From positions 3,107,904 through 3,171,903 of the forward strand of contig CM068313.1 in assembly GCA_034766995.1 (NCBI GenBank): a stretch of 64,000 bases of DNA, given 5' to 3'. Position 1 is the stretch's first letter. Each line of letters opens with the position of its first letter. The notes under the pieces are model-generated. The model was not told where the DNA came from. It did no database searches and worked only from the letters and a program-made list of their open reading frames with translations. The position numbers and the translations under genes are program-made. Source of the DNA: Acanthacorydalis orientalis. Taxonomy: Eukaryota > Arthropoda > Insecta > Megaloptera > Corydalidae. This document shows, piece by piece, positions 5,761 to 62,796 of the stretch.

Positions 5761-5764
5761 AACA

Positions 5765-8217: not shown

Positions 8218-8240
8218 TATTTCTACCATCTCTGGCCAGA

Positions 8241-8274
<34 letters not shown>

Positions 8275-10744: not shown

Positions 10745-12040
10745 CTTCTTATCAAATGTGTTCAATAATTTGGCTTCGATCGCTGCTCGTTTCGATGGTG
10801 GTGTCAGCAGACCTGCAAGTATAAAAAACCTTAGATTTTTCTATATCTTATCTTTTTGAATTTCGGTGGACTCTTCGTCTGTTTTTTTTTGTTAATTTAC
10901 TCTCTTATTGATTTTTACATAGTCTCTTCGATCTGTCTGATTGAAATTCGATAAAAGAAATCAACGCATTCTTTATTTTCATAAATAAATTGTTCACCGA
11001 CTCCACTAACCATTAAATATGTTTTTGATCAAAAATGTCCAATAAATAATTATTGGTCGTCTTTGATTGTTGCTCATTCCTATAAAACTGTCATCAGACC
11101 GTTGATGTACATAAAAATCTTAGATTTTTCAATACTTAGCTCTCTGTATTTCAGTGTTGTCTGTGTTTTTCTGTTAATTTACTCTTTTATTGATTTTTAC
11201 ATAGCCTCTTTGATCTTACTGATTGAAATTCGATGAAAAGAAATAAACGCCTTCTCTGTTTTCATAAATAAATTTTTCACTAACCTCAAAAACTATTGAA
11301 TATGTTTCTCATCAAGAATGTCTAATAAATGGTAATTAATCACATTTAATTGTTGCTCATTTCTATGGATGTGTCATCAGACCACTAAAGTAAAGAAAAA
11401 TCATAGATTTTTCTACAGATTTTTCAATACTTAGCTCTTTGAGTTTCAGTAGTCTCTTGATATGCTTTTTTTTGTTAGTTTACTCTTTTATTGATTTTTA
11501 CATAGCCTCTATGATCTTTTCTGATTAAAATTCGATGAAGAGAAATCAACGCATTCTCTATTTTCATAAATAAATTTTTCACTGATCCCACAAACCATTA
11601 AATACGTTTCTGTTCAAAAATGTCCAATAAATGATAATTAATCGCATTTAGTTGTTTCTCATTTCTATGGATGTGTCCTTAAACCACTTAGGTAAGGAAA
11701 AATTATAGATTTTTCTATATCTTGGCTCTCTGAGCATCAATGGTGTCTTGATGTGTTTTTTTTTTGTTAATTTATTCTTTAATTAATTTCTTCACAGCCT
11801 CTTTGATCATTCCGACTGTGCTTCGATACAAGAAACGTCGCATTTTTTATTTTTTCAAATAAATTTTTCACTGACCCCACAAACCAATAAACATGTTTAT
11901 GATCAAAAGTGTCTAATAAACAATTATTCCACATCTTTGATTTTTGTTGATTTCTATGGAAGTGTCATCAAACCATTAAGATACAAAAAAAATCTTTTTC
12001 TAATGATGTCTCTATATCTTAGCTCTCTGAGTATCGAGAC
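10745..12040. repeat. Tandem array of about 290-bp units (4.4 copies), related to a foldback MITE
   Basis: The block GTTAATTTACTCTTTTATTG recurs at about 10892, 11178, 11475 and 11768, spacings about 285, 297 and 293. Each unit also has AAATTTTTCACTGA and AAAATGTCCAATAAATGATA followed by TCATCA. The last motifs match the core of the foldback MITEs at 29669, 30484 and 57105 read in reverse, so the array seems to be an amplified MITE. Confidence 0.8.
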
Positions 12041-37128: not shown

Positions 37129-37947
37129 TACATACATAAATATATATAGAGAGAGAGAGAGAAAATTCAGATGTTTTAAAACAGTTTCCATTCTAAATAC
37201 TGCGCAATACTTAAACATTTATAACAATAATCAGTATAATGCAATTCATCTTTATGAAAATTCATAAACATTACACAATATAACAACAATATATGTATGT
37301 ATTCTTCGTGATATCGTTTGCCAGATGTTTCGGGTCATTGTTACAAATATGTGCAGAGATATTATGTACGAGAACGTACACACATACCATCACAACTGTC
37401 ACAATATCGATTTTGTAGTTTAATTCCATTCATCACGACAAAGTATATTCGCACGTGAAACCCACTGACATTGTTTCAGTATCGAATCGATGTTGCTGTA
37501 TGTTCGAACGATGAAAGAATGAATAGTATGGAAGTGATTTTAAAGAGATATATTTCTTTGTAATATGCCGATATATAAAAAATCAAATTAACAAAAGTAA
37601 TCGTTAGTAAGAGAAAATAATTATTTAAATATAATCAAGCAAAATCGAATACGTTGTGCCACCTATGAGTATCAATTTTAACAAATGTACATACAGTACA
37701 GAAGTCTACATTACCGGGAATTTCTTCCTCGCATAATTTCTATATTTTCTTTTCAATTTACGTTAATATTTTCAATATTTAAATAATTACGAAGTTAGTG
37801 TTTAGAAAAAAATGTGCAAAACATTTTTTCCATTCATTTCCTTCGAGATTTAATTAAAAAAGAATAATAATTTCTAATGAAGTTCTTTTCATAATTACGA
37901 GTATATGTTGTTTGTTCAAACGCTACAAATACAGATTAGAATATATA
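36954..37947. other. Spacer with a long (TC)n(TA)n(GA)n microsatellite, no gene
   Basis: The composite at 37006-37162 is described separately; the rest is AT-rich without frames of note. Confidence 0.4.
37006..37162. repeat. Composite microsatellite (TC)n-(TA)n-(GA)n
   Basis: (TC)n at 37006-37028, (TA)n at about 37045-37124, (GA)n at 37149-37162. The outer arms are complementary and the middle self-complementary, so the whole 157 bp can fold back. Confidence 0.9.
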
Positions 37948-38935
37948 CGAGTGGGTCTAAAAGTTCACGAAAAAGAGACAAAAAAAAGTGTGATTAAGCT
38001 GAATTTCTTTATTTCTCAATATAGGCCTCCTCAATACTAATACATTTTTTACAACGCTCGATGAGCTTTTCAAGATCTTCTAAAAAATATTCTTTCGGTT
38101 TGTTTGAAAAATGCTCTTAAATAGCCAGCTTCACTTCTTCATCGTTTTGAAATTTATTACCACTCAAGTCTCTCTTCAGATTCGGGAATAAAAAGTAGTC
38201 GCACGGCGACTAATCTGGACTATATGGTGGATGGCTAAGTTCTTGGAAACCACACTCAGTCACAGCCGCCATCGCAGTCTGACTTCGGTCTACCGGAGCA
38301 TTGTCTTGCAAAGAAGAACACATTTTGACAATTTTCCACGTCTTTTCCCTTTAATGGTTTGTCAGTGTCGAAGAATGCTCGACGCGTAGCTCTCTCCGGT
38401 TATGCCGACACCCTTTTCTTTGTATTCAATTAAGAGAATGTGTTCTGCATCCCAAAACACAGTCACCATCATTTTTCCCAGTGACTGCGACACATTGAAT
38501 TTCTTGGGTGGGGATGCCCCCTTTTTCAGCCACTGCTCTGAGGTTGATAGTGATGGACCCGAGTTTCGTCTCCGAAAACTAATCTGTCGAAAATCGCACA
38601 AAAATCTTCGCCATACACCTTCAAAAACTACCAAATGCACGCAACTCGTTTCCTCTTTTACAACAGTGTAAGCATTCTCCCCACCCATCTTGCACTCGCA
38701 TGAGTCATGTCTAGATAATCATGCAAGATTCTGAGAATGCTGGTGGTATCGGATACTCCAGTAACTTCTGCGAGTTACTTCTTCTTCAGTAGACCATCTT
38801 CCGATACAAAATTTTCAACTATTTCGATAATGTCTGAGGTGGTAGCCTCGACCGGGTGTCCAGAGTGGTAATCGTCTTACAAATCTTCTCTTCCTTGTTT
38901 AAAAAGAGAATGTCAATTAAAAATAATACCCTTTC
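37948..38935 (-). mobile_element. Mariner relic, nearly full length
   Basis: Minus strand, N to C: ATTSDIIEIVENFVSEDGLL (helix-turn-helix, about 38855-38795), DTTSILRILHDYLDM (about 38755-38712), SEQWLKKGASPPKKFNVSQS, MMVTVFWDAEHILLIEYKEK with the first Asp region (about 38475-38415), then ETAL-like, and the third Asp region near 38215-38190. The end GAGTGGGTCTAAAAGTTCAC lies at about 37951. Stops and shifts make it inactive. It abuts the left edge of the 155-bp satellite. Confidence 0.8.
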
Positions 38936-38950
38936 CTAGCTAACGATCCC

Positions 38951-41900
38951 ACATTTGAACCAGTTTTTCGCCTGTAAGTAATCGAAATTAAATGTGAAAC
39001 GGCTAATGTCATACATGGTTAGATAGATCTTAAAATTATCAATCACATGGAATACAAGTCAATTGAACTATTTTCCAAAAAAGCCTAATTTTGACCAAAA
39101 ACCCCATTTACTAACCAGTTTTTCACCCATAAATAGATGAAATTAACTGCACAACGGCCAATGTCATACAAGGTTAGATACATCTTAAAATTATATAGGA
39201 CGTGGTGTGCGATTAGATTAAATTATTTTATAAAAAAGCCTAGTTTTGATCCAAAAACAGTCCAGTCCAAAAATAGTTCAAATTAAATGCGAAACGGGCA
39301 ATATTATACATGGTTAAATTCGTCATAAAATTATCTATCACATGGTGCACAACTCGATTGAATTATTTTTACAAAAGGACTAGTTTTAATCCGAAAACTC
39401 ATTTTTGAACCAGTTTTTCGCCTATAAAGAATCAAAATTAACTACGAAAGAAATAAATTCATACATAAATAGATCCGTCTTGAAATTATCTATTACCTGG
39501 TGTGCAATTCGATTGAATTATTTTATAAAAAGGCCATGTTTTGATCCAAAAATCCATTTTTGAACCAGTTTTTCGCCACGAAGTAGTCGAAATTAACTGC
39601 GAAACAGCTTAATACATACATCATTAGATGCGGCTTAAAATTATGTATCACGTGGTGTGCAATTCGACTCGATTATATTCAAAAAAGGCCTAATTTTGCC
39701 CAAAAAACCAATTTTTCAACCAGTTTTTCGGCCATAAGTAGTCGAAATTAAGTGCGAAACGGCTAATATCGGACATCCTTAGATGCGGCTTAAAATTATC
39801 TATCACGTGGTGTGCAATTCGACTCGATTATTTTCCAAAAAGGCCTAATTTTGCCCAAAAAATCAATTTTTCAACCAGTTTTTCGGCCATAAGTAGTCGA
39901 AATTAAGTGCGAAACGGCTTAATTCGCACATCGTTAGATGCGGCTTAAAATTATCTATCACGTGGTGTGCAATTCAACTCAATTATTTTCCAAAAAGGCC
40001 TAATTTTGCCCAAAAAACCAATTTTTCAACCAGTTTTTCGGCCATAAGTAGTCGAAATTAAGTCCAAAACGGCTAATATCGCACATCGATAGATGCGGCT
40101 TAAAATTATCTATCACGTGGTGTGCAATTCAACTTGCTTATTTTCCAAAAAGGCCTAATTTTGCCCAAAAAACCAATTATTCAACCAGTTTTTCGGCCAT
40201 AAGTAGTCGAAATTAAGACGAAAACGGCTAATATCGCACATCGTTAGATGCGGCTTAAAATTGTCTATCACGTGGTGTGCAATTCATCACGATTATTTTC
40301 CAAAAAGGCCTACTTTTGCCCCAAAAACCAATTTTTCAACCTGTTTTTCGGCCATAAGTAGTCGAAATTAAGTGCGAAACGGCTTAATTCGCACATCGTT
40401 AGATGCGGCTTAAAATTATCTATCACGTGGTGTGCAATTCGACTCGATTATTTTCCAAAAAGGCCTAATTTTGCCCAAAAAAACAATTTTTCAACCAGTT
40501 TTTCGGCCATAAGTAGTCGAAATTAAGTGCGAAACGGCTAATATCGCACATCCTTAGATGCGGCTTAAAATTATCTCTCACGTGATGTGCAATTCAACTC
40601 GATTATTTTCCAAAAAGGCCTAATTTTGCCCAAAAAACCAATTTTTCAACCAGTTTTTCGGCCATAAGTAGTCGAAATTAAGTGCGAAACGGCTAATATC
40701 GCACATCCTTAGATGCGGCTTCAAATTATCTATCACGTGGTGTGCAATTCAACTCGCTTATTTTCCAAAAAGGCCTAATTTTGCCCAAAAAAACAATTTT
40801 TCAACCACTTTTTCGGCCATAAGTAGTCGAAATTAAGTGCGAAACGGCTAATATCGCACATCCTTAGATGCGGCTTAAAATTATCTATCACGTGGTGTGC
40901 AATTCAACTCGATTATTTTCCAAAAAGGCCTACTTTTGCCCCAAAAACAAATTTTTGAACCAGTTTTTCGGCCATAAGTAGTCGAAATTAAGTGCGAAAC
41001 GGCTTAATTCGCACATCGTTAGATGCGGCTTAAAATTATCTATCACGTGGTGTGCAATTCATCTCGATTATTTTCCAAAAAGGCCTACTTTTGCCCCAAA
41101 AACAAATTTTTGAACCAGTTTTTCGGCCATAAGTTCTCGAAATTAAGTGCGAAACGGCTTAATTCGCACATCGTTAGATGCGGCTTAAAATTATCTATCA
41201 CGTGGTGTGCAATTCATCTCGATTATTTTCCGAAAAGGCCTAATTTTGCCCAAAAAAACAATTTTTCAACCAGTTTTTCGGCCATAAGTAGTCGAAATTA
41301 AGTGCGAAACGGCTAATATCGCACATCCTTAGATGCGGCTTAAAATTATCTCTCACGTGATGTGCAATTCAACTCGATTATTTTCCAAAAAGGCCTAATT
41401 TTGCCCAAAAAACCAATTTTTCAACCAGTTTTTCGGCCATAAGTAGTCGAAATTAAGTGCGAAACGGCTAATATCGCACATCCTTAGATGCGGCTTCAAA
41501 TTATCTATCACGTGGTGTGCAATTCAACTCGCTTATTTTCCAAAAAGGCCTAATTTTGCCCAAAAAAACAATTTTTCAACCACTTTTTCGGCCATAAGTA
41601 GTCGAAATTAAGTGCGAAACGGCTAATATCGCACATCCTTAGATGCGGCTTAAAATTATCTATCACGTGGTGTGCAATTCAACTCGATTATTTTCCAAAA
41701 AGGCCTACTTTTGCCCCAAAAACAAATTTTTGAACCAGTTTTTCGGCCATAAGTAGTCGAAATTAAGTGCGAAACGGCTTAATTCGCACATCGTTAGATG
41801 CGGCTTAAAATTATCTATCACGTGGTGTGCAATTCATCTCGATTATTTTCCAAAAAGGCCTACTTTTGCCCCAAAAACAAATTTTTGAACCAGTTTTTCG

Positions 41901-44900
41901 GCCATAAGTTCTCGAAATTAAGTGCGAAACGGCTTAATTCGCACATCGTTAGATGCGGCTTAAAATTATCTATCACGTGGTGTGCAATTCATCTCGATTA
42001 TTTACCGAAAAGGCCTAATTTTGCCCAAAAAATCAATTTTTCAACCAGTTTTTCGGCCATAAGTAGTCGAAATTAAGTCCAAAACGGCTAATATCGCACA
42101 TCGTTAGATGCGGCTTAAAATTATCTATCACCTGGTGTGCAACTCATCACGATTATTTTCCAAAAAGGCCTACTTTTGTCCCAAAAACCAATTTTTCAAC
42201 CAGTTTTTCGGCCATAAGTAGTCGAAATTAAGACCAAAACGGCTAATATCGCACATCGTTAGATGCGGCTTAAAATTATCTATCACCTGGTGTGCAACTC
42301 ATCACGATTATTTTCCAAAAAGGCCTACTTTTGTCCCAAAAACCAATTTTTCAACCAGTTTTTCGGCCATAAGTAGTCGAAATTAAGACCAAAACGGCTA
42401 ATATCGCACATCGTTAGATGCGGCTTAAAATTATCTATCACGTGGTGTGCAATTCAACTCGCTTATTTTCCAAAAAGGCCTTATTTTGCCCAAAAAACCA
42501 ATTATTCAACCAGTTTTTCGGCCATAAGTAGTCGAAATTAAGTGCGAAACGGCTAATATCGAACATCTTTAGATGCGGCTTAAAATTGTCTATCACGTGG
42601 TGTGCAATTCATCACGATTATTTTCCAAAAAGGCCTACTTTTGCCCCAAAAACCAATGTTTCAACCAGTTTTTCGGCCATAAGTAGTCGAAATTAAGTGC
42701 GAAACGGCTTAATTCGCACATCGTTAGATGCGGCTTAAAATTATCTATCACGTGGTGTGCAATTCAACTCGCTTATTTTCCAAAAAGGCCTTATTTTGCC
42801 CAAAAAACCAATTATTCAACCAGTTTTTCGGCCATAAGTAGTCGAAATTAAGTGCGAAACGGCTTAATTCGCACATCGTTAGATGCGGCTTAAAATTATC
42901 TATCACGTGGTGTGCAATTCAACTCGATTATTTTCCAAAAAGGCCTAATTTTGCCCAAAAAACCAATTATTCAACCAGTTTTTCGGCCATAAGTAGTCGA
43001 AATTAAGTGCGAAACGGCTAATATCGCACATCTTTAGATGCGGCTTAAAATTGTCTATCACGTGGTGTGCAATTCATCACGATTATTTTCCAAAAAGGCC
43101 TACTTTTGCCCCAAAAACCAATGTTTCAACCAGTTTTTCGGCCATAAGTAGTCGAAATTAAGTGCGACACGGCTTAATTCGCACATCGTTAGATGCGGCT
43201 TAAAATTATCTATCACGTGGTGTGCAATTCGACTCGATTATTTTCCAAAAAGGCCTAATTTTGCCCAAAAAAACAATTTTTCAACCAGTTTTTCGGCCAT
43301 AAGTAGTCGAAATTAAGTGCGAAACGGCTAATATCGCACATCCTTAGATGCGGCTTCAAATTATCTATCACGTGGTGTGCAATTCAACTCGCTTATTTTC
43401 CAAAAAGGCCTAATTTTGCCCAAAAAAACAATTTTTCAACCAGTTTTTCGGCCATAAGTAGTCGAAATTAAGTGCGAAACGGCTAATATCGCACATCCTT
43501 AGATGCGGCTTAAAATTATCTATCACGTGGTGTGCAATTCAACTCGATTATTTTCCAAAAAGGCCTACTTTTGCCCCAAAAACAAATTTTTGAACCAGTT
43601 TTTCGGCCATAAGTAGTCGAAATTAAGTGCGAAACGGCTTAATTCGCACATCGTTAGATGCGGCTTAAAATTATCTATCACGTGGTGTGCAATTCATCTC
43701 GATTATTTTCCAAAAAGGCCTACTTTTGCCCCAAAAACAAAATTTTGAACCAGTTTTTCGGCCATAAGTTCTCGAAATTAAGTGCGAAACGGCTTAATTC
43801 GCACATCGTTAGATGCGGCTTAAAATTATCTATCACGTGGTGTGCAATTCATCTCGATTATTTTCCGAAAAGGCCTAATTTTGCCCAAAAAACCAATTAT
43901 TCAACCAGTTTTTCGGCCATAAGTAGTCGAAATTAAGTGCGAAACGGCTAATATCGCACATCTTTAGATGCGGCTTAAAATTGTCTATCACGTGGTGTGC
44001 AATTCATCACGATTATTTTCCAAAAAGGCCTACTTTTGCCCCAAAAACCAATTTTTCAACCAGTTTTTCGGCCATAAGTTCTCGAAATTAAGTACGAAAC
44101 GGCTTAATTCGCACATCGTTAGATGCGGCTTAAAATTATCTATCACGTGGTGTGCAATTCGACTCGATTATTTTCCAAAAAGGCCTAATTTTGCCCAAAA
44201 AAACAATTTTTCAACCAGTTTTTCGGCCATAAGTAGTCGAAATTAAGTGCGAAACGGCTAATATCGCACATCCTTAGATGTGGCTTAAAATTATCTCTCA
44301 CGTGATATGCAATTCAACTCGATTATTTTCCAAAAAGGCCTAATTTTGCCCAAAAAACCAATTTTTCAACCAGTTTTTCGGCCATAAGTAGTCGAAATTA
44401 AGTGCGAAACGGCTAATATCGCACATCCTTAGATGCGGCTTAAAATTATCTATCACGTGGTGTGCAATTCATCTCGATTATTTTCCAAAAAGGCCTACTT
44501 TTGCCCCAAAAACAAATTTTTGAACCAGTTTTTCGGCCATAAGTTCTCGAAATTAAGTGCGAAACGGCTTAATTCGCACATCGTTAGATGCGGCTGAAAA
44601 TTATCTATCACGTGGTGTGCAATTCATCTCGATTATTTTCCGAAAAGGCCTAATTTTGCCCAAAAAAACAATTTTTCAACCAGTTTTTCGACCATAAGTA
44701 GTCGAAATTAAGTGCGAAACGGCTAATATCGCACATCCTTAGATGCGGCTTAAAATTATCTATCACGTGGTGTGCAATTCAACTCGATTATTTTCCAAAA
44801 AGGCCTAATTTTGCCCAAAAAACCAATTTTTCAACCAGTTTTTCGGCCATAAGTAGTCGAAATTAAGTCCAAAACGGCTAATATCGCACATCGTTAGATG

Positions 44901-45236
44901 CGGCTTAAAATTATCTATCACGTGGTGTGCAATTCAACTCGCTTATTTTCCAAAAAGGCCTAATTTTGCCCAAAAAACCAATTATTCAACCAGTTTTTCG
45001 GCCATAAGTAGTCGAAATTAAGTGCGAAACGGCTAATATCGCACATCTTTAGATGCGGCTTAAAATTGTCTATCACGTGGTGTGCAATTCATCACGATTA
45101 TTTTCCAAAAAGGCCTACTTTTGCCCCAAAAACCAATTTTTCAACCAGTTTTTCGGCCATAAGTAGTCGAAATTAAGTCCAAAACGGCTAATATCGCACA
45201 TCGTTAGATGCGGCATCAAATTATTTATCACGTGTG
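38951..45236 (+). repeat. 155-bp satellite array, about 40 monomers, plus orientation
   Basis: CAGTTTTTCG recurs at 38961, 39116, 39411, 39566, 39721, 39876 and on at exact multiples of 155. The monomer includes GGCCATAAGTAGTCGAAATT, TTAGATGCGGCTTAAAATTA and TATCACGTGGTGTGCAATTC. The left-edge monomers (to about 39700) are clearly diverged and one is short, while inner ones are nearly uniform. A longer period exists: 41023-41301 recurs almost exactly at 41798-42076 (775 bp, 5 monomers). The 92-codon frames here are repeat frames. Confidence 0.97.
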
Positions 45237-48200
45237 GTCATTGTCCAAAAATCGTCGTCAAACTCGAGTTAATTTTAGACATTGTCCAAAAATCGTCGTA
45301 AGTTCCGAGTCAGTTTTAGACATTGTCCAAAAATCGTCCTCAGTTCCGAGTCAATTTTCGACATTCACCAAAAATCGACGTCACATCCAAGTCAATTTTA
45401 GACATTGTCCAAAAATCGTCGACATATCCGAGTCAATTTTAGACATTGTCCAAAAATCGTCGACATATCCGAGTCAATTTTAGACATTGTCCAAAAATCG
45501 TCGACATATCCGAGTCAATTTTAGACATTGTCCAAAAATCGTCATCACATCCGAGTCAATTTTAGACATTGTCCAAAAATCATCGTCAGTTCCGAGTCAA
45601 TTTTAGACATTGTCCAAAAATCGTCGACATATCCGAGTCAATTTTAGACATTGTCCAAAAATCGTCGTCACATCCGAGTCAATTTTCGACATTCACCAAA
45701 AATCGACGTCACATCCGAGTCAATTTTAGACATTGTCCAAAAATCATCGTCAGTTCCGAGTCAATTTTAGACATTGTCCAAAAATCATCGTCAGTTCCGA
45801 GTCAATTTTAGACAGTGTCCAAAAATCGTCGACATATCCGAGTCAATTTTAGACATTGTCCAAAAATCTTCGTCAGTTCCGAGTCAATTTTAGACATTGT
45901 CCAAAAATCTTCGTCAGTTCCGAGTCAATTTTAGACATTGTCCAAAAATCGTCGTCACATCCGAGTCAATTTTAGACATTGTCCAAAAATCATCGTCAGT
46001 ACCGAGTCAATTTTAGACATTGTCCAAAAATCGTCGTCACATCCGAGTCAATTTTAGACATTGTCCAAAAATCGTCGACATGTCCGAGTCAATTTTAGAC
46101 ATTCTCCAAAAATCGACGTCACATCCGAGTCAATTTTAGACATTGTCCAAAAATCGTCGACATATCCGAGTCAATTTTAGACATTGTCCAAAAATCTTCG
46201 TCAGTTCCGAGTCAATTTTAGACATTGTCCAAAAATCGACGTCACATCCGAGTCAATTTTAGACATTGTCCAAAAATCGTCGACATATCCGAATCAATTT
46301 TAGACATTGTCCAAAACTCGTCGTCAGTTTCGAGTCAATTTTAGATATTGTCCAAAAATCATCGTCAGTTCCGAGTCAATTTTAGACATTGTCCAAAAAT
46401 CGTCGTCACATCCGAGTCAATTTTAGACATTGTCCAAAAATCATCGTCAGTTCCGAGTCAATTTTAGACATTGTCCAAAAATCGTCGTCACATCCGAGTC
46501 AATTTTAGACATTGTCCAAAAATCGTCGGCATGTCCGAGTCAATTTTAGACATTGTCCTAAAATCGTCGACATGTCCGAGTCAATTTTAGACATTCTCCA
46601 AAAATCGACGTCACATCCGAGTCTATTTTAGACATTGTCCAAAAATCGTCGACATATCCGAGTCAATTTTAGACATTGTTGAAAAATCTTCGTCAGTTCC
46701 GAGTCAATTTTAGACATTGTCCAAAAATCTTCGTCAGTTCCGAGTCAATTTTAGATTTTGTCCAAAAATCTTCGTCAGTTCCGAGTCAAATTTAGACATT
46801 GTCCAAAAATCGTCGTCACATCCGAGTCAATTTTAGTCATTGTCCAAAAATCATCGTCAGTTCCGAGTCAATTTTAGACATTGTCCAAAAATCGTCGTCA
46901 CATCCGAGTCAATTTTAGACATTGTCCAAAAATCGTCGGCATGTCCGAGTCAATTTTAGAGAGTCAATTTTAGACATTGTCCAAAAATCGTCGACATGTC
47001 CGAGTCAATTTTAGACATTCTCCAAAAATCAACGTCACATCCGAGTCAATTTTAGACATTGTCCAAAAATCGTCGACATATCCGAGTCAATTTTAGACAT
47101 TGTCCAAAAATCTTCGTCAGTTCCGAGTCAAATTTAGACATTGTCCAAAAATCTTCGTCGGTTCCGAGTCAATTTTAGACATTGTCCAAAAATCGTCGTC
47201 ACATCCGAGTCAATTTTAGACATTGTCCAAAAATCATCGTCAGTTCCGAGTCAATTTTAGACATTGTCCAAAAATCGTCGTCACATCCGAGCCAATTTTA
47301 GACATTGTCCAAAAATCGTCGGCATGTCCGAGTCAATTTTAGACATTGTCCAAAAATCGTCGACATGTCCGAGTCAATTTTAGACATTGTCCCAAAATCG
47401 TCGACATGTCTGAGTCAATTTTAGACATTGTCCAAAAATCGTCGACATATCCGAGTCAATTTGAGACATTCTCCAAAAATCGACGTCACATCCGAGTCAA
47501 TTTTAGACATTGTCCAAAAATCTTCGTCAGTTCCGAGTCATTTTTAGACATAGTCCAAAAATCGTCGTCAGTTCCGAGTCAGTTTTAGACATTGTCCAAA
47601 AATCGTCGTCACATCCGAGTCATTTTTAGACATTGTCCAAAAATCGTCGTCAATTCCGAGTCAATTTTAGACATTGTCCAAAAATCGTCGACATATCCGA
47701 GTCAATTTTAGACATTCTCCAAAAATCGACGTCACATCCGAGTCATTTTTAGACATTGTCCAAAAATCGTCGTCAGTTCCGAGTCAGTTTTAGACATTGT
47801 CCAAAAATCGTCGTCACATCCGAGTGATTTTTAGACATTGTCCAAAAATCTTCGTCAGTTCCGAGTCAATTTTAGACATTGTCCAAAAATCGTCGCCACA
47901 TCCGAGTCAATTTTAGACATTGTCCAAAAATCGTCGTCAGTTTCGAGTCAATTTCAGACATTGTCCAAAAATCGTCGTCACATCCGAGTCAATTTTAGAC
48001 ATTGTCCAAAAATCGTCGGCATGTCCGAGTCAATTTTAGACATTGTCCAAAAATCTTCGACATGTCCGAGTCAATTTTAGACATTGTCCCAAAATCGTCG
48101 ACATGTCCGAGTCAATTTTAGAAATTGTCCAAAAATCGTTGACATATCCGAGTGATTTTTAGACATTGTCCAAAAATCGTCGTCAAACCCGAGTTAATTT

Positions 48201-51200
48201 TAGACATTGTCCAAAAATCGTCGTAAGTTCCGAGTCAGTTTTAGACATTGTCCAAAAATCGTCGTCAGTCCGAGTTAACTTTAGACATTGTCCAAAAATC
48301 GTCGACATATCCGAGTCAATTTTAGACATTGTCCCAAAATCGTCGACATGTCTGAGTCAATTTTAGACATTGTCCAAAAATCGTCGACATATCCGAGTCA
48401 ATTTGAGACATTCTCCAAAAATCGACGTCACATCCGAGTCAATTTTAGACATTGTCCAAAAATCGTCGTCACATCCGAGTCATTTTTAGACATTGTCCAA
48501 AAATCGTCGTCAGTTCCGAGTCAGTTTTAGACATTGTCCAAAAATCGTCGATATATCCGAGTCAATTTTAGACATTGTCCAAAAATCTTCGTCAGTTCCG
48601 AGTCAATTTTAGACATTGTCCAAAAATCGTCGCCACATCCGAGTCAATTTTAGACATTGTCCAAAAATCGTCGTCAGTTTCGAGTCAATTTCAGACATTG
48701 TCCAAAAATCGTCGTCACATCCGAGTCAATTTTAGACATTGTCCAAAAATCGTCGGCATGTCCGAGTCAATTTTAGACATTGTCCAAAAATCTTCGACAT
48801 GTCCGAGTCAATTTTAGACATTGTCCCAAAATCGTCGACATGTCCGAGTCAATTTTAGAAATTGTCCAAAAATCGTTGACATATCCGAGTGATTTTTAGA
48901 CATTGTCCAAAAATCGTCGTCAAACCCGAGTTAATTTTAGACATTGTCCAAAAATCGTCGTAAGTTCCGAGTCAGTTTTAGACATTGTCCAAAAATCGTC
49001 GTCAGTCCGAGTTAACTTTAGACATTGTCCAAAAATCGTCGACATATCCGAGTCAATTTTAGACATTGTCCCAAAATCGTCGACATGTCTGAGTCAATTT
49101 TAGACATTGTCCAAAAATCGTCGACATATCCGAGTCAATTTGAGACATTCTCCAAAAATCGACGTCACATCCGAGTCAATTTTAGACATTGTCCAAAAAT
49201 CGTCGTCACATCCGAGTCATTTTTAGACATTGTCCAAAAATCGTCGTCAGTTCCGAGTCAGTTTTAGACATTGTCCAAAAATCGTCGTCACATCCGAGTC
49301 ATTTTTAGACATTGTCCAAAAATCGTCGTCAATTCCGAGTCAATTTTAGACATTGTCCAAAAATCGTCGACATATCCGAGTCAATTTTAGACATTCTCCA
49401 AAAATCGTCGTCACATCCGAGTGATTTTTAGACATTGTCCAAAAATCGTCGTCAATTCCGAGTCAATTTTAGACATTGTCCAAAAATCGTCGATATATCC
49501 GAGTCAATTTTTGACATTGTCCAAAAATCTTCGTCAGTTCCGAGTCAATTTTAGACATTGTCCAAAAATCGTCGCCACATCCGAGTCGCTTTTAGACATT
49601 GTCCAAAAATCGTCGTCAGTTTCGAGTCAATTTCAGACATTGTCCAAAAATCGTCGTCACATCCGAGTCAATTTTAGACATTGTCCAAAAATCGTCGGCA
49701 TGTCCGAGTCAATTTTAGACATTGTCCAAAAATCGTCGACATGTCCGAGTCAATTTTAGACATTGTCCCAAAATCGTCGACATGTCCGAGTCAATTTTAG
49801 ACATTGTCCAAAAATCGTTGACATATCCGAGTGATTTTTAGACATTGTCCAAAAATCGTCGTCAAACCCGAGTTAATTTTAGACATTGTCCAAAAATCGT
49901 CGTAAGTTCCGAGTCAGTTTTAGACATTATCCAAAAATCGTCGTCAGTTCCGAGTCAATTTTAGACATTCTCCAAAAATCGTCGTCAGTTCCGAGTCAAT
50001 TTTCGACATTCACCAAAAATCGACGTCACATCCGATTCAATTTTAGACATTGTCCAAAAATCGTCGACATATCCGAGTCAATTTTAGACATTGTCCAAAA
50101 ATCGTCGACATGTCCGAGTCAATTTTAGACATTGTCCAAAAATCGTCGACATATCCGAGTCAATTTTAGACATTCTCCAAAAATCGACGTCACATCCGAG
50201 TCAATTTTAGACATTGTCCAAAAATCGTCGACATATCCGAGTCAGTTTTAGACATTGTCCAAAAATCGTCGTCAGTTCCGAGTCAATTTTAGACATTCAC
50301 CAAAAATCGTCGTCAGTTCCGAGTCAATTTTCGACATTCACCAAAAATCGACGTCACATCCGAGTCAATTTTAGACATTGTCCAAAAATCTTCGTCAGTT
50401 CCGAGTCAATTTTAGACATTGTCCAAAAATCGTCGACATATCCGAATCAATTTTAGACATTCTCCAAAAATCGACGTCACATCCGAGTCAATTTTAGACA
50501 TTGTCCAAAAATCGTCGACATATCCGAGTCAATTTTAGACATTGTCCAAAAATCGTCGTCACATCCGAGTCAATTTTAGACATTGTCCAAAAATCATCGT
50601 CAGTTCCGAGTCAATTTTAGATATTGTCCAAAAATCGTCGTCACATCCGAGTCAATTTTAGACATTGTCCAAAAATCGTCGGCATGTCCGAGTCAATTTT
50701 AGACATTGTCCAAAAATCGTCGACATGTCCGAGTCAATTTTAGACATTGTCCCAAAATCATCGACATGTCCGAGTCAATTTTAGACATTGTCCAAAAATC
50801 GTCGACATATCCGAGTCAATTTGAGACATTCTCCAAAAATCGACGTCACATCCGAGTCAATTTTAGACATTGGCCAAAAATCGTCGTCACATCCGAGTCA
50901 ATTTTAGACATTGTCCAAAAATCGTCGTCACATCCGAGTCATTTTTAGACATTGTCCAAAAATCGTCGTCAGTTCCGAGTCAGTTTTAGACATTGTCCAA
51001 AAATCGTCGTCAGTTCCGAGTCAATTTTAGACATTCTCCAAAAATCGACGTCACATCCGAGTCAATTTTAGACATTGTCCAAAAATCTTCGTCAGTTCCG
51101 AGTCAGGTTTCGACATTCACCAAAATATCGACGTCACATCCGAGTCAATTTTAGACATTGTCCAAAAATCGTCGTCAGATCAGAGTCAATTTTAGACGTT

Positions 51201-51284
51201 GTCCAAAAATCGTCGTAAGTTCCGAGTCAGTTTTAGACATTGTCCAAAAATCTTCGTCAGTTCCGAGTCAATTTTAGACATTCT
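45237..51284 (+). repeat. 41-bp satellite array, about 147 monomers, plus orientation
   Basis: A constant part (CCGAGTCAATTTTAGACATT then GTCCAAAAATC) alternates with a variable 10-bp part drawn from a few forms (GTCGTCACAT, GTCGACATAT, GTCGTCAGTT, TTCGTCAGTT, GTCGGCATGT, GTCGACATGT, GACGTCACAT). A 737-bp block (18 monomers, one short) at 47838 repeats at 48575. Because 41 is not a multiple of 3, open frames of 80 codons recur; they are artefacts. The array joins the 155-bp array in mid-monomer at TCACGTG. Confidence 0.97.
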
Positions 51285-51312
51285 CCAATTCTAAAATTGA
51301 CTCGAAACTGAC
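51258..51312. repeat. Palindromic orientation switch of the 41-bp satellite
   Basis: The left arm ends GAGTCAATTTTAGA (to 51278), then an 11-nt spacer CATTCTCCAAT, then TCTAAAATTGACTC (from 51290). Beyond this the two arrays remain mutually inverted for kilobases. Confidence 0.95.
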
Positions 51313-54300
51313 GATGATTTTTGGACAATGTCTAAAATTGACTCGGATATGTCGACGATTTTTGGACAATGTCTAAAATTGACTCGGATGTGACGTCGAT
51401 TTTTGGAGAATGTCTAAAATTGACTCGGAACTGACGACGATTTTTGGACAATGTCTAAAACTGACTCGGAACTGACGACGATTTTTGGACAATGTCTAAA
51501 AATGACTCGGATGTGACGACGATTTTTGGACAATGTCTAAAATTGACTCGGATGTGACGTCGATTTTTGGAGAATGTCTAAAATTGACTCGGATATGTCG
51601 ACGATTTTTGGACAATGTCTAAAATTGACTCGGATGTGACGTCGATTTTTGGAGAATGTCTAAAATTGACTCGGATATGTCGACGATTTTTGGACAATGT
51701 CTAAAATTGACTCGGAATTGACGACGATTTTTGGACAACGTCTAAAATTGACTCTGATCTGACGACGATTTTTGGACAATGTCTAAAATTGACTCGGATG
51801 TGACGTCGATTTTTGGTGAATGTCGAAAATTGACTCGGATGTGACGTCGATTTTTGGACAATGTCTAAAATTGACTCGGATGTGACGTCGATTTTTGTTG
51901 AATGTCAAAAATTGACTCTGAACTGACGACGGTTTTTGGACAATGTCTAAAATTGACTCGAAACTGACGACGATTTTTGGACAATGTCTAAAATTGACTC
52001 GGATGTGACGACGATTTTTGGACAATGTCTAAAATTGACTCGGATGTGACGTCGATTTTTGTTGAATGTCAAAAATTGACTCTGAACTGACGACGGTTTT
52101 TGGACAATGTCTAAAATTGACTCGAAACTGACGACGATTTTTGGACAATGTCTAAAATTGACTGGGATGTGACGACGATTTTTGGACAATGTCTAAAATT
52201 GACTCGGATGTGACGTCGATTTTTGGTGAATGTCGAAAATTGACTCGGATGTGACGTCGATTTTTGGAGAATGTCTAAAATTGACTCGGAACTGACGACG
52301 ATTTTTGGACAATGTCTAAAATTGACTCGGATATGTCGACGATTTTTGGACAATGTCTAAAATTGACTCGGACATGTCGACGATTTTTGGACAATGTCTA
52401 AAATTGACTCGGATGTGACGTCGATTTTTGGTGAATGTAAAAAATTGACTCGGAACTGACGACGATTTCTGGACAATGTCTAAAATTGACTCGGACATGT
52501 CGACGATTTTTGGACAATGTCTAAAATTGACTCGGATGTGACGTCGATTTTTGGTGAATGTAAAAAATTGACTCGGAACTGACGACGATTTCTGGACAAT
52601 GTCTAAAATTGACTCGGATGTGACGTCGATTTTTGGACAATGTCTAAAACTGACTCGGAACTGACGACGATTTTTGGACAATGTCTAAAATTGACTCGGA
52701 TATGTCGACGATTTTTGGACAATGTCTAAAATTTACTCGGAACTGACGATGATTTTTGGACAATGTCTAAAATTGACTCGGATGTGACGACGATTTTTGG
52801 AGAATGTCTAAAATTGACTCGGATATGTCGACGATTTTTGGACAATGTCTAAAATTGGCTCGGATGTGACGTCGATTTTTGGAGAATGTCTAAAATTGAC
52901 TCGGATATGTCGACGATTTTTGGACAATGTCTAAAATTGACTCGGAATTGACGACGATTTTTGGACAACGTCTAAAATTGACTCTGATATGACGACGATT
53001 TTTGGACAATGTCTAAAATTGACTCGGATGTGACGTCGATTTTTGGTGAATGTCGAAAACTGACTCGGAACTGACGAAGATTTTTGTACAATGTCTAAAA
53101 TTGACTCGGATGTGACGACGATTTTTGGACAATGTCTAAAATGGACTCTGAGCTGACGACGATTTTTGGACAATGTCTAAAATTGATTCGGAACTGACGA
53201 CGATTTTTGGACAATGTCTAAAATTGACTCGGATATGTCGACGATTTTTGGACAATGTCTAAAATTGACTCGGACATGTCGACGATTTTTGGACAATGTC
53301 TAAAATTGACTCGGAACTGACGATGATTTTTGGACAATGTCTAAAATTGACTCGGATGTGACGACGATTTTTGGACAATGTTTAAAATTGACTCGGAACT
53401 GACGAAGATTTTTGGACAATGTCTAAAATTGACTCGGATATGTCGACGATTTTTGGACAATGTCTAAAATTGACTCGGATGTGACGTCGATTTTTGGAGA
53501 ATGTCTAAAATTGACTCGGATATGTCGACGATTTTTGGACAATGTCTAAAATTGACTCGGAATTGACGACGATTTTTGGACAACGTCTAAAATTGACTCT
53601 GATCTGACGACGATTTTTGGACAATGTCTAAAATTGACTCGGATGTGACGTCGATTTTTGGTGAATGTCGAAAACTGACTCGGAACTGACGAAGATTTTT
53701 GGACAATGTCTAAAATTGACTCGGATGTGACGACGATTTTTGGACAATGTCTAAAATGGACTCTGAGCTGACGACGATTTTTGGACAATGTCTAAAAATG
53801 ATTCGGAACTGACGACGATTTTTGGACAATGTCTAAAATTGACTCGGATATGTCGACGATTTTTGGACAATGTCTAAAATTGACTCGGACATGTCGACGA
53901 TTTTTGGACAATGTCTAAAATTGACTCGGAACTGACGATGATTTTTGGACAATGTCTAAAATTGACTCGGATGTGACGACGATTTTTGGACAATGTTTAA
54001 AATTGACTCGGAACTGACGAAGGTTTTTGGACAATGTCTAAAATTGACTCGGATATGTCGACGATTTTTGGACAATGTCTAAAATTGACTCGGATGTGAC
54101 GTCGATTTTTGGAGAATGTCTAAAATTGACTCGGATATGTCGACGATTTTTGGACAATGTCTAAAATTGACTCGGAATTGACGACGATTTTTGGACAACG
54201 TCTAAAATTGACTCTGATCTGACGACGATTTTTGGACAATGTCCAAAATTGACTCGGATGTGACGTCGATTTTTGGTGAATGTCGAAAACTGACTCGGAA

Positions 54301-54868
54301 CTGACGAAGATTTTTGGACAATGTCTAAAATGGACTCTGAGCTGACGACGATTTTTGGACAATGTCTAAAATTGATTCGGAACTGACGACGATTTTTGGA
54401 CAATGTCTAAAATTGACTCGGATATGTCGACGATTTTTGGACAATGTCTAAAATTGACTCGGACATGTCGACGATTTTTGGACAATGTCTAAAATTGACT
54501 CGGAACTGACGACGATTTTTGGACAATGTCTAAAATTACCTCGGGTATATAGACAATTTTTGGACAATGTCCAAAATTAACTAGGGATTGACGAAAATTT
54601 TTGGAAAATATCTAAAATTACCTCGGATCTGACGACGATGTTTAGACAATGTCTAAAATTAATACGGGACTGACGAAGATTTTTTGACATTGTCTAAAAT
54701 TAACACGGGTCTGACGACGATTTTTAAACAATGTCTAAAATTAACTCGGGTTTGACGACGATATTTGGACAATGTCTAAAATTACCTCGGATCTGACGAC
54801 GATTTTTGGACATTGTCTAAAATTAACTGGGACATCTAGACGATTTTTGGACATGGTCAAAATGTGTG
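51290..54868 (-). repeat. 41-bp satellite array, about 87 monomers, minus orientation
   Basis: Same monomer and variant set as 45237-51284, inverted. A 615-bp higher-order block (15 monomers) starts near 52931, 53546 and 54161. Monomers from about 54530 to the right edge are strongly diverged, as at an ageing array edge. Confidence 0.97.
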
Positions 54869-55432
54869 TGTGGGTCTGTGTGTGTGTGGGTCTGGGTGTG
54901 TGTGGGTCTGGGTGTGTGTGGGTCTGAATGTGGGTGGGTCTGGACGTGTGTGGGTCTAAATGTGTTTTGATCTGGGTGTGTTTTGATCTGGGTGCGTTTT
55001 TCTGGGAGTGTGTGGGTCTGATTGGGTCTGTGTATATGTGGATTTGGGTGTATGTAGGTCTGGATTTTGGTCTGTGATTCTGGATGTGTGTGGGTCTAGA
55101 TGTATTTTTATCTGGGTGTGTTTTGATCGGTGTGCGTGTGTCTGAGAATGTGTGGGTCTGTTTGTGTGTGAGTCTGGGTATGTGTGGGTCTTTTTGTGTG
55201 TGGGTCTGTGTGTGTGGGTCTGTGTGTGGGTCTGTGTGTGTGGGTCTGTGTATGTATGGATTTGGGTGTATGTGGGTCTGGAATTGTGTGGGTCTGGATG
55301 TGTTTGGATCTGGGTGTATTTTGATCTGGGTGCGTGTGTCTGGGAATGTGTGGGTCTGGGTGTGTGAGGGTCTGTGTATGTGTGGGTTTGCGTGTGTGTG
55401 GTTCTGTTTGTGTGGGTCTGTGTGTGTGTGGA
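54869..55432 (+). repeat. GT-rich minisatellite
   Basis: Irregular units built on GTGTGTGGGTCTG with variants such as GTGTTTTGATCTGG. Open in several frames on both strands (up to 142 codons) only because of composition; not coding. A related segment continues at 55815-55910 beyond an insertion. Confidence 0.9.
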
Positions 55433-55650
55433 TCTTTCGAACCGTGCGAGCGCGGGTGCTGTTTCTTTTTATCTAACTTTCTTTTATTTGACGTAGTGCG
55501 TTGTCGAGTACCACCACTCCTTTTGTTGGTCGCCACCGTTCGTGCTTAACTTAGTTGCTTGTTGTAATATTTTAGAGTTTTGCTATGTTGCACCTTAGCT
55601 GTAGTCAATTTATTTCAAAGTTATCGTGTAAATATACGAAGATATATGTG

Positions 55651-55731
<81 letters not shown>

Positions 55732-55814
55732 GTATATTTGATATCAATAAATGTTTCTTCATATTATACGTGAGTATTTGTTTCTAAAATATATTTGTAT
55801 GTATTTCAGAGATC
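55433..55814. other. Insertion within the GT-rich minisatellite, with a (TA)n tract
   Basis: Unique DNA (55433-55640) then (TA)n (55655-55735) splits the GT-rich repeat. No terminal repeats were resolved, so the origin is unknown. Confidence 0.5.
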
Positions 55815-55935
55815 CAGGGTCTGTGTTTGTAGATGTGTATGTTAGTCTGTGTGTTTTTGGGTCTGCTGTGTGTGGCTCTGTGTGTGTGTGGGTCTGTCTG
55901 TGTGTTAAACGACGATTTGTGGACATTGTCTAAAA

Positions 55936-56575
55936 TCACTAGGAAAACTGGTTCAATAATAGTTTTTTGGTTAAAACGAGGCTTTTTTGGAAAATAATTC
56001 AATCAAACTGCACACCACGTGATAGATAATATTGAGACGCATTTAACCATGTATTAATTTTGTCGTTTCGCACTTAATTTCGACTACTTATGGCCGAAAA
56101 ACTGGTTGAGAAATAGGTTTTTTGAGCAAAGTAAGGTCTTTTTGGAAAATAATCAAATCGAATTGCAAACCACGTGATAGATATTTTTGAGACACATCTA
56201 ACCATGTACGAATTAAGCTGTTTCGCAGTTCATTTCGACTATCTATTGCCGAAGAACTAGTTCAAAAATGGGTTTTTTGGTCAAAACTAGGCCTGTTCAG
56301 AAAATAATTCAATCGAATTGCACACCACGTCATAGATAATTTTGAGACGTATCTATTCATGTATGAATTAAGCCGTTTCGCAGTTATTTTCGAAAACTTA
56401 TAGCCGAATAACTGGTTCAAAATTGGATTTTATGGCCGAAATTAGGTCTTTTTGGAAAATAATTCAATCGAATTGCACACCACGTGATAGATAATTTTAA
56501 GACGCATCCAACCGTTTATGAATTTATTTATTTCGCAGTTAATTTCGACTTATAGGCGAAAAACAGATTCTACAA
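55936..56575 (-). repeat. 155-bp satellite, about 4 diverged monomers, minus orientation
   Basis: The inverse of the 38951-45236 monomer: AACTGGTT-type words at about 55947, 56102, 56257, 56411 and 56565 (spacing 154-155), with GCACACCACGTGATAGATAA and TTTCGACTACTTATGGCCGA. A single 41-bp-type remnant (ACGACGATTTGTGGACATTG, about 55909) sits just before it, keeping the order 155-bp/41-bp on the inverted side. Confidence 0.93.
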
Positions 56576-57528: not shown

Positions 57529-60352
57529 TTACCCCAAGAGTACTTTACGCATCATATACCTATTCGGTGGATGGCTGTTGGATGTGTCTGTCGTGTCGCT
57601 TCCCACAATACATTTCGAAGAACATAGATACTGTAAGAGCGGTATACGATACTTGCCGCAGAAATCGACAAACTTTATGTGTTCTACACGATTGTCAAAG
57701 AAAACACCTGAATAGAAAAAAAGTTTATGAAATCAGAGGATGCTTTTGAGATGCCACGTCGAACAAAAGAATTCGAAATTCATGAATATATACACTCTTT
57801 TAAATAAGTAAATAAGTTATTAATTAAATATACGGTAATCAATACCGTAAATTTGAATTTAAAAATTATTTTTTTATTTTACGATGATCATTTTAACTAA
57901 TTTATTCATATTCCTGTTCGATATAATAGAGGAAAAAAGACGAGAGGGTATCCGCTGTACTTTGTATCTTAGGCCGTATATAATATACAAAGCTCGCCGA
58001 AGCAATGAACCGTCGAAGGCAAGTTTCATAACGGCCTCATGAACATCGATGTAGTTAGATATATTGTTTTAAAATAGATATATCTTTCAATAAAAACAAT
58101 AAATACATTACTTATTTCTTTTACATATCAAATGCAAAATATGTCAGTTGTGCAATTCTTCAAATGTTGTTTATTGTATAAACATTTGTCAGTTCAGCAT
58201 TTTTGTAAAAATTATAGATACATAAAACATTAATTATCATAGTTTAGGTCAAAACATTCGATGTAACAATAATGTCGAGTTCAACTTGATGAAATAAAAA
58301 ATTTTAAATTTAACCGATGTTATTTATTGATACAAATTAATAATAGATTATTAGACCATGATAAAAAAAAACGTAGTAGACGTGCGTTATATTTATGAAA
58401 ACTATGAACAATTTGTCATATTATGACATTTAATACATGTTTCGGCATGTTAAATGCGACAATGCTATAAAAATATTCGTACAATGCCAGTTTTACATAT
58501 TGTAATAAAAATGAATTGGAATTAAAACCATGTTAAAGTATTGAAAATAAAAAACTAACTTCTATTAAATAGCACAAAGAATAGATTCAAATTTTAACAC
58601 ATATCTTCAGTCTGAAAAAAAGAATAATCTTGAAGACTTTCACCGGCACGGTAGTTTTACAACTGCACATTTTCGTTTTATTAAAATGTCTAATAATCGA
58701 TTATATATATTTTGAAATCGATGACAACATTCACAGAGCACAAACAGATAAGTTACGTGTGCTGAAAAGACGACAGCATTGAAAAAAGTCTCTGACCAGG
58801 AAATTGAAATTATCATAGGTTTGATTCGAGTAAAATTTATAAATATTTTCAACCTCTCATACTTCATACTTTTCTGTAAAAAATTATTACATACTTTTTA
58901 AAAAAAAGCAGTTCAATTATTTAACTTTTAACCCTTTACATATTGGCAGAACTTTCACGTGTCATAGACAAAAAACCGATATTAAGTAATTAATGATTCA
59001 TCGATCATCTCATGAAACTTCTGTTCGAAATAAGAAAAATATCATTTTATTTTTCTTCAGTGCTATTCTTTTTCACAATAAAAATTACATTCTACATATC
59101 ATATTTGATTTTAATCGATCCAGTAAACAAAAGGTTAAAACGTAGGACGGAAATTTTAACTTTTTAAAAAAAAATCTTTAAACAGATAAACATCGATGTC
59201 GTATACATTTCGAAACCAAATTGCATCAAATTATAAACATAACACGACCGAATAATAAGAATGTCAATAACTTCTAGTATAGACAAAAAAAAAATACTAT
59301 TACATTCTACTGCACATTTATCAACTGACCTTTGCACTTCGGATTGACACAATAGTGTCCGCTGTCTAAATACGCTATCAGACACTGCGGGAGATCGCCG
59401 GGGGATACTTCGATAGACGTAACCTTCACGACTCTCGCCGCCAACTCTAATAAACTGGCCGGGTTGTACGTCATATCGCTGACGAATCTCACGACCAGCG
59501 GATTATCTCGTAAACTGAGCTGCAAGACAAGAGATCGATCGATCGATCGTCGACGTCGTGTAAAGCGAATCGACGGTACTCACTTCCGTAAGGTTTTTGA
59601 GCGCGACGATTTCCAGCGGTAGCGTTTTTAATCTGTTTTTATGCAACAGCAACGACTTCAGATGACGTAGATTCGCTATGTTCGCCGGTAAATTGACGAT
59701 TTCGTTATCCGATAAAACCAGCACGTGCAAGAACTTCAACAGGCCGACCGAGGCCGGTACCTCCGCTATCGAATTGCTTCCCATCGAGAGGACCTGAAGG
59801 CTACGGAAAGAAACGAGAACCGTCGATCGATAGTGAAATCGATCGCCGGTGATCGTCGACTCACCCGTTCAGTTTCCAGATGTCTTTCGGTATGTTGTCG
59901 ATACGATTCCCGCCGAGATATAAATACTTCAAATTCGTCATTTCGAGTATTTGGTCCGGGAACGATGTCAGCTGATTCCCACTGAGATTCAACTCTTTCA
60001 AATGCGTGCACTGCGATAACGATTTCGGTAACAAGTCGTTCGTTAGACGGTTGTTTTTGGCGATTAGCGTCTTCAGCTTGCAATCGAACGGAATGTCTGG
60101 GAGCAAGTTGAGCCCGTTCGAGCTCACGTCGAGGACTTGCAATTGACTAAATTTGAACACGTTCGACGGGATCTCAGAAATCCGGTTATGTCCGAGGAGG
60201 AGTATTTCGACATCGTTGAACGACCCTTTGTTTGCATTCAATATATGTTCGATGTTATTTTCCAATACATTCCTGTCGAGCATCGAGTGCGAAAAATCGA
60301 CTACTTTATTGTGATTATCACTGTCACTGCTATCTGACGTGTAATTCTCCAT
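57529..60352 (-). CDS. LRRC58: LRRC58-like leucine-rich repeat protein, 4 coding exons, complete
   Basis: Coding exons (minus): 60352-59865, 59800-59584, 59519-59330, 57707-57529. Introns are 64, 64 and 1622 bp, all GT-AG (donors GTGAGT, GTGAGT, GTCAGT), and the phases join into one 357-aa frame. An acidic Ser/Asp N-terminus is followed from about residue 48 by LxxLxLxxNxL leucine-rich repeats to about residue 245. The C-terminus carries the Cys pattern typical of LRRC58: HYCVNPKCK at the end of exon 3, then FFDNRVEHIKFVDFCGKYR and LCSSKC in exon 4. Human LRRC58 is about 370 aa, so this is full length. The start is the ATG beginning MENYTSD. The last exon lies 1.6 kb away behind an AT-rich intron with a TTAA-flanked MITE, so simple gene finding would miss it. 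LRRC58 is a cytosolic LRR protein; reports linking the human protein to a ubiquitin-ligase adaptor role are outside knowledge. Head-to-head with KAT5. No disruption seen. Confidence 0.93.
58932..59134. mobile_element. TTAA-flanked MITE (piggyBac-type) in LRRC58 intron 3
   Basis: A 203-bp segment starts CCCTTTACAT and ends ACAAAAGG (inverse CCTTTTGT), with TTAA directly outside both ends (58928-58931 and 59135-59138). TTAA duplication plus a CCCTT-like terminus is the piggyBac pattern. The terminal inverted repeat is short and imperfect, so this is tentative. Confidence 0.4.
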
Positions 60353-60881
60353 TACTGAATTTAAACTATATAAAACAATCGAAAATACTATTTATGTTGA
60401 ACACTGAGATACATCTCAAATACACATCTCCTCTTCAAATAAATAATTTCTTAGAACACTGAGATTAAGCAGTGCTCATCGTTACAAACATACACATACA
60501 CACACACACACGGTCGCGCCGAAGCTCAAAAGTCACACTACATCGTTTTTACATCAATTATATGCATGTATTTAATCTGTGTCACGGAGTCTGATAAAAA
60601 TTTATGAGAACTGATAAGATGTTGTAATGACTATATAGTTTTCTTCTTCCGAGAAGAGAGAATTCTAAAAAAAAAAGACATGTAATCACTGTCGTACGCT
60701 CTTTCACAATTCACAATGAAAATATTGCGTTATTCCAAGACACGAAAATAACTTCCAGCGAACATGCCAGTAAAATTTAAATTTAATCTTAACGTGGAGC
60801 GGACAGCGACGGCCGCCGCTCGATTTTCTGTCAGGGTTTTTTAATACACATATTTATACACACATTTTTTTTTTCATTAAT
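60353..60881. promoter_or_regulatory. Bidirectional promoter interval between LRRC58 and KAT5
   Basis: Only 529 bp separates the two divergent start codons, so both 5' UTRs and core promoters must lie here unless upstream exons exist. It holds a (CA)n run at about 60493-60512 next to a GC-rich patch, and a second GC-rich patch at about 60795-60825 just upstream of the KAT5 start. No clear TATA box is placed. Promoter assignment is by position. Confidence 0.6.

Positions 60882-62796
<1,915 letters not shown>

Follow-up and report, generated by a model that had tools for sequence, protein, structure and literature searches.

Inward-facing inverted blocks of several satellites in Acanthacorydalis orientalis: a probable dispersed family resembling the macro-dyads of Tribolium

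Introduction

In Tribolium madens, T. freemani and T. castaneum, two intermingled satellites form macro-dyads that invert over kilobases to tens of kilobases; the part of the source available to us describes characteristic inversion sites and transition zones, with inversion-site subunits conserved at 98.2-98.9% (PMC13081366). These macro-dyads make up megabase-sized putative (peri)centromeric fields and, in the same part of that source, are said to be documented exclusively in Tribolium (PMC13081366). A limited literature search for macro-dyads beyond Tribolium returned an Edessa bug paper, whose available text only cites the Tribolium work, and a trypanosome paper, known to us by its title. 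Foldback elements offer a second comparison. According to the available portion of its description, the arms of Tetris combine a unique outer domain with tandem repeats of variable number, reach up to 1.7 kb and are dispersed (PMC4079207). The target-site duplications given in the accessible text are 8-10 bp long for Tetris (PMC4079207) and 9 bp for Tm1 (PMC3169594).

Satellites are usually described family by family; in the blocks reported here, several unrelated repeats tend to keep their order and polarity around a flip of orientation. Layered satellite fields are also known from centromeres, with the older, divergent repeats at their edges.

Results

The window, that is, the whole stretch of DNA that was analysed, comprises 64,000 nucleotides of Acanthacorydalis orientalis (C1:3,107,904-3,171,903, in an assembly of 548 Mb and 27 contigs) and contains no N. 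TRF and module mapping give the order of the block as 155(+), 41(+), flip at 51,278-51,288, 41(-), GT-rich minisatellite with an insert, 41-bp remnant and 155(-). The element order and the positions that the earlier note had claimed for both satellites were all recovered by TRF and the module map, and its statement that the two satellites invert together with their order kept holds as well. The features are as follows.

37941..38930, minus strand: mariner-type transposase fragment, decayed, with broken frames; context directly outside the left end of the block
38954..45234, plus strand: 155-bp satellite, left arm, 40 copies (TRF 40.6)
45239..51277 (TRF to 51,288), plus strand: 41-bp satellite, left arm, about 147 copies
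51278..51288, no strand: flip, an 11-bp spacer CATTCTCCAAT between perfect 15-bp inverted repeats
51289..54862 (TRF 51,286-54,853), minus strand: 41-bp satellite, right arm, about 87 copies
54863..55435 (TRF 54,864-55,435), minus strand: GT-rich minisatellite (CA-rich on the other strand), first piece
55436..55816, plus strand: insert carrying an AT microsatellite (55,642-55,737)
55817..55905 (TRF 55,834-55,905), minus strand: GT-rich minisatellite, second piece
55906..55943, minus strand: lone 41-bp remnant of the GTGATTTTAGACAATGTCC type, adjoining the right 155-bp array
55944..56564, minus strand: 155-bp satellite, right arm, four divergent copies (TRF 4.0)

The outermost eight copies of the right 41-bp arm (54,529-54,856) lie 4-9 bases from the consensus. 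Minisatellites like that of the window stand between or within 155-bp and 41-bp arrays at C1:12.0M, C1:38.85M, C1:54.45M, C5:10.6M and C9:25.4M. Relatives of the insert (∼70-83% identity) occur as several opposite-strand pieces on the left side of C1:38.84M, on the same strand on the right side of C1:45.3M, and as a short opposite-strand piece on the left side of C8:35.84M. Beside a minisatellite-associated insert at C1:38.847M, a tRNA-like stretch, possibly SINE-derived, was seen by eye (L029, from ∼9,109); ARAGORN found no tRNA gene in it.

Elsewhere in the window, two genes lie head to head, one for an LRR protein (59503-60391, minus strand) and one for KAT5/Tip60 (exons within 60891-62338, plus strand); the right end of the block is 2.9 kb from the first and 4.3 kb from the second. 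Named relatives of the KAT5 gene come from insects (Tenebrio, Cryptolaemus, Ephemera, Scirpophaga and Periplaneta) and are distant. A piece of mariner-type transposase (5595-6002, minus strand; PF01359, E 1.5e-05) is present near the start of the window, and the Transposase_1 ORF at these positions is weakly matched (E 4e-6) by the decayed fragment outside the left end of the block. The sole Rfam match in the window is a 28S ribosomal RNA fragment (8232-8339, plus strand; RF02543, 65 bits). TRF lists further tandem repeats at 10832-11994 (302 bp, four copies) and 4394-5450 (480 bp, 2.2 copies).

The earlier note had called for a genome-wide search for the 155/41 pairing; searches with each satellite give matches at many scattered sites. 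A piece of the 155-bp array gave 242 genome matches (at least 29 places among the matches listed) and a 41-bp query gave 532 (at least 13 further places among the matches listed); counted by eye among the matches listed, those of both satellites mark at least 42 places on C1-C11. With several places per contig among these matches, and the window block within 5 kb of two genes, the placement does not look like that of (peri)centromeric fields, a reading that a holocentric species would alter. Twenty 10-kb stretches and six more yielded 13 loci, which were mapped together with the window (14 sequences).

All ten loci that reach the middle of a block, the window included, carry a 41(+) to 41(-) flip; three of these ten (C3:32.6M, C1:45.3M and C8:35.8M) had been preselected, with both strands already among their matches. 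Among ten loci chosen by 155-bp matches alone, seven reach the main 41-bp array, six of them flip, and the seventh (C5) is cut off. The main 155-bp array lies outward of the 41-bp array, and is co-oriented with the neighbouring 41-bp repeats, at 11 of 11 loci. The module maps contain 32 orientation switches, 22 from 41(+) to 41(-) and ten from 41(-) to 41(+), and the latter are confined to C1:12.0M and to outer relic repeats.

The commonest order, from the outside inward, is a second 155-bp satellite, the 155-bp satellite, a CA/GT minisatellite, the 41-bp satellite and the flip, followed by the mirror image. The second 155-bp satellite is present at C1:38.8M, C5 and C7; neither it nor the mRpL51-like segment described below has a match in the flanks of the window at E 0.1. 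Locus C1:12.0M reads 155(+), minisatellite(+), 41(+), 41(-), minisatellite(-), 155(-), plus small extra switches, and is the only one with the 155-bp satellite, minisatellite and 41-bp satellite on both sides; elsewhere one side misses modules or the stretch ends too early. No locus has the full module set on both sides, partly because of cut stretches. C1:38.8M reads minisatellite(+), 41(+), flip, 41(-), minisatellite(-), 41(-), 155(-), second 155(-). At C1:54.45M (L015-L016, C1:54.46M), a unit of minisatellite(+), 41(+) and 41(-) is repeated seven times in tandem, the last cut by the end of the stretch, so that the minisatellite is unmirrored there. The order is also broken at C3:32.6M and C1:45.3M, whose 41-bp arrays contain 155-bp islands, and at C4:18.7M, C9:25.4M, C1:38.8M and C7:18.4M, where 41-like relics lie on the outer side of the 155-bp arrays. 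Since the same inward-facing order is found at other scattered sites, the window block is an instance of a structure that recurs, not an isolated accident.

The flip of the window reads CGAGTCAATTTTAGA [CATTCTCCAAT] TCTAAAATTGACTCG, with 15-bp arms that pair perfectly across the 11-bp spacer. When the arms are extended, 24 of 25 bases pair, a dyad score that is weak on its own, as unidirectional arrays average 18.6/25. Flips tend to sit in or near an odd dyad that the 41-bp monomer itself carries, TTTTWRGACA-W-TGTCYAAAA; the window flip falls within the monomer-dyad region, with the dyad core altered. A strict flip expression, in which GAGT.. and ..ACTC border the dyad, finds the main flip of six of the ten loci (the window, C1:54.45M, C4, C9, C1:45.3M and C8) and also matches twice off the main flips, in C1:45.3M at 7,249 and in C8 at 282. 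Judged by eye, the remaining main flips are one base off (C1:38.8M), without the core (C3), shifted by about ten bases (C1:1.59M) or occupied by an AAAGGAG minisatellite in place of the dyad (C1:12.0M). The opposite expression, for 41(-) to 41(+), matches four times in the fetched loci, all in C1:12.0M. By eye, the dyad region is the same at most loci, with a variable exact sequence.

A tighter flip pattern run against the whole genome gave 74 sites at one mismatch or fewer, 19 of them exact, and the same pattern read backwards, as a control, gave none. The 55 one-mismatch sites were excluded from the count, because an ordinary monomer with a one-letter change could pass. The 19 exact sites make 14 places on nine contigs including C13, and the flip of the window does not match this pattern exactly. 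Several exact flips may occur at one place (two at C1:23.65M, three at C1:32.07-32.10M and three at C2:28.16M), so the single-flip block is no universal rule. At C1:32.0M, C6:38.6M, C7:26.5M and C10:17.9M, which were not fetched, the adjacent 41-bp or 155-bp matches are on the strand that the orientation rule predicts.

Comparison of the two 41-bp arms of the window gives a longest exact stretch of 203 bp between the left arm and the reverse-complemented right arm, and of 14 bp without reverse complementing. Exact repeats within the arms are longer, 257 bp in the right arm and 722 bp in the left, which has an internal higher-order duplication. Decomposition into monomers, fragments included, gives 147 on the left and 89 on the right (64 and 42 distinct, 11 common to both). 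In a mirror test, the best mirror diagonal has a mean of 0.898 and the best anti-diagonal 0.893, and runs of mirrored monomer order (at 95% identity) extend over at most five monomers. Given such short mirror runs, and exact repeats longer within than between arms, any mirror copying was later overlaid by local duplication.

A consensus typed from the left core served as the reference for scoring the 155-bp copies. Scores are 79-84% for the four right copies, 71-80% for the outermost four left copies and at least 92% for the other 36 left copies; right copies are ∼80% identical to the left core and 74% to the left edge. The earlier note held that the right arm later shrank, which these values do not establish. 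The divergence of the 155-bp copies is compatible with a short arm that has decayed, and equally with a left core that expanded later. For both 155-bp edges of the window the nearest locus is C1:1.59M, to which the right copies stand 2.3 points closer than to their own left core, with a 95% interval of -1.7 to 6.0 that was computed for the right edge only. The outer ends of the block have nearly the same 155-bp monomer phase at both sides, GTTTTTCGCC, which lends weak support to one bounded block.

Across loci, the 41-bp arm closest by mean monomer identity is that of the same locus in four of nine cases (C1:1.59M, C9, C1:45.3M and C1:38.8M, where one arm pair merely ties); elsewhere the own arm ties or loses. 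The left 41-bp arm of the window is 89% identical to its own right arm and 90% identical to C3:32.6M. Mean monomer identity between arms is 89-94% at five of nine loci, and at some loci, e.g. C1:1.59M and C1:45.3M, variants private to the locus occur in both arms. Within a locus, the longest exact left/right stretch measures 77-233 bp, which at seven of nine loci exceeds the between-locus maximum (103 bp; median 31 bp). As for the 155-bp arrays, the arms of C1:12.0M are closest to each other (88%) and those of the window are not (79%). Inside-out growth from the flip was considered as a general rule and rejected, there being no consistent gradient across loci.

Nine junctions between 155-bp and 41-bp arrays were compared. 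Those of the window are unlike on the 155-bp side (column 85 on the left, column 14 on the right), and the same holds for most of the nine. The 155-bp side coincides in two cases. The left and right junctions of C3:32.6M agree (columns 0 and 22), which is what one inverted duplication would leave, and the right junction of the window falls within one base of the left junction of C1:1.59M, a coincidence with an estimated chance of ∼5% over 36 pairs. The 41-bp side is at column 38 in five of the nine junctions, at column 22 in two and at columns 31 and 12 in one each, the window-left value being doubtful since TRF starts that array later. The earlier note had proposed a single event as the origin of the block. 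The joint inversion with order kept speaks for it; the unlike junctions (85 vs 14), with arms unmirrored monomer by monomer, speak against it.

Outside the 155-bp arrays, C1:38.86M and C7:18.46M have ∼760 bp in common at 75% identity, and this sequence is itself dispersed, with 75 genome matches. It includes a decayed mRpL51-like exon (PF10244; E 5.7e-16 for the C1:43.79M copy and 2.7e-11 for the C7 copy). The same outer sequence occurs at C2:40.66M in mirrored orientation before a 155(+) array, in a stretch with no flip in view. The mRpL51-like segment thus lies outside 155-bp arrays at three places, with no sharp common end proved. As far as the sequences go, the dispersed fragment suggests that the arrays may travel with neighbouring DNA. 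On C11, at 15.865M and 15.951M, the two copies of an inverted mRpL51-like pair ∼86 kb apart show 98.5% identity along 401 fetched bp, with no end reached; the pair is possibly a large recent palindrome.

Discussion

We consider it reasonably probable that the window block belongs to a family of inverted multi-satellite blocks (‘macro-dyads’) that face inward and are dispersed over the genome, and for this family we infer foldback, arm exchange and spread. A replicating or broken strand would fold back at the 41-bp dyad and copy the array in the opposite direction, producing the flip; a foldback step of this kind, or an inverted duplication, is what one would naturally expect behind a flip. The left and right arms of each locus would then stay alike in their 41-bp repeats through exchange with one another. 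Blocks or their parts, with flanking DNA, could be copied elsewhere by ectopic exchange, or excised DNA could be reinserted; every array would then expand, contract and be replaced separately. The foldback step fits the flip sites, arm exchange fits the long exact stretches and spread fits the dispersed gene fragment; none of the three is proved.

An unlikely alternative is that one-directional 155-41 arrays were dispersed first and that each then flipped independently at the hairpin-prone 41-bp dyad. The flip spacers and the 155-bp side of the junctions do vary between loci, and repeated use of one site is to be expected of a dyad that is intrinsic to the monomer. However, a flip at the dyad could equally yield 41(-) to 41(+), whereas the main arrays almost always show 41(+) to 41(-), and the outer modules would need to have inverted too.

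We also doubt, to a very similar degree, that the block is a giant foldback-type transposon, i.e. a non-autonomous DNA element mobilized by a transposase in trans, whose long terminal inverted repeats string several tandem repeats together in a set order (cf. FB, Tetris, Galileo and Tm1). The block does have long terminal inverted repeats that contain tandem repeats: composite arms stand head to head in many dispersed copies, the outer ends of the window block start at near-identical 155-bp phase, and a non-tandem segment lies outside the 155-bp arrays at three places, mirrored before 155(+) at C2:40.66M. This segment is, however, a decayed host-gene fragment, and the C11 inverted pair has no end within 401 bp. 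Neither a target-site duplication beyond chance nor a common non-satellite inverted end was found at the four loci with both flanks partly covered (the window, C1:1.59M, C1:38.84M and C4:18.7M), where the right flank was 1.3-2.3 kb only at two loci and the edges may be decayed or further out. The flank matches in that search were a 39-bp direct match (window), the 155-bp edges themselves and 41-like relics (C4); two 7-mers are common to both end regions of the window but lie off the edges.

It is similarly doubtful, if conceivable, that the mirrored multi-satellite block is itself the replicating unit: such a unit would be foldback-like, tens of kilobases long, with satellite arms in fixed order, able to carry pieces of host genes (mRpL51-like) and the ultimate source of the dispersed satellites of this insect.

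That the flip stems from a false join, or from a hairpin read left unsplit, is very improbable: the repetitive nature of the blocks and the N stretches of 3.7-4.5 kb in three of the joined loci (C1:12.0M, C9:25.4M and C3:32.6M) would favour it, but unsplit hairpin reads should be exact mirrors, the window arms differ in length and monomer order, and the flip signature occurs at 19 exact sites elsewhere, which together make an exact-mirror read or assembly artefact unlikely.

If the family of inverted blocks is as we propose, the blocks are a testable case for the origin and spread of palindromic satellites and for the upkeep of their symmetry. Should they be transcribed, the arms may give long double-stranded RNA.

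With the layered satellite fields of centromeres, the blocks share older, divergent repeats at some array edges; they differ in that the layout of the window is an inversion, with no consistent inside-out gradient. The long inverted tandem-repeat arms and dispersed copies are also features of foldback elements such as Tetris and Tm1, as the available parts of their descriptions present them, but no target-site duplication was found at the four loci, and the window arms are 5-12 kb long against at most 1.7 kb in Tetris. To judge from the available text on them, the Tribolium macro-dyads are the best match to the layout seen here: in both, direct and inverted subarrays of one satellite meet at a flip (in Acanthacorydalis at ten of ten loci, three of them preselected). 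Unlike those of Tribolium as that text describes them, the Acanthacorydalis blocks are ∼10-30 kb long in the fetched loci, scattered, and built of up to five module types, and their flips lie near one monomer dyad with variable sequence. The blocks extend the idea of the macro-dyad from the putative pericentromeres of Tribolium to dispersed sites of another insect, the site in the window being near genes.
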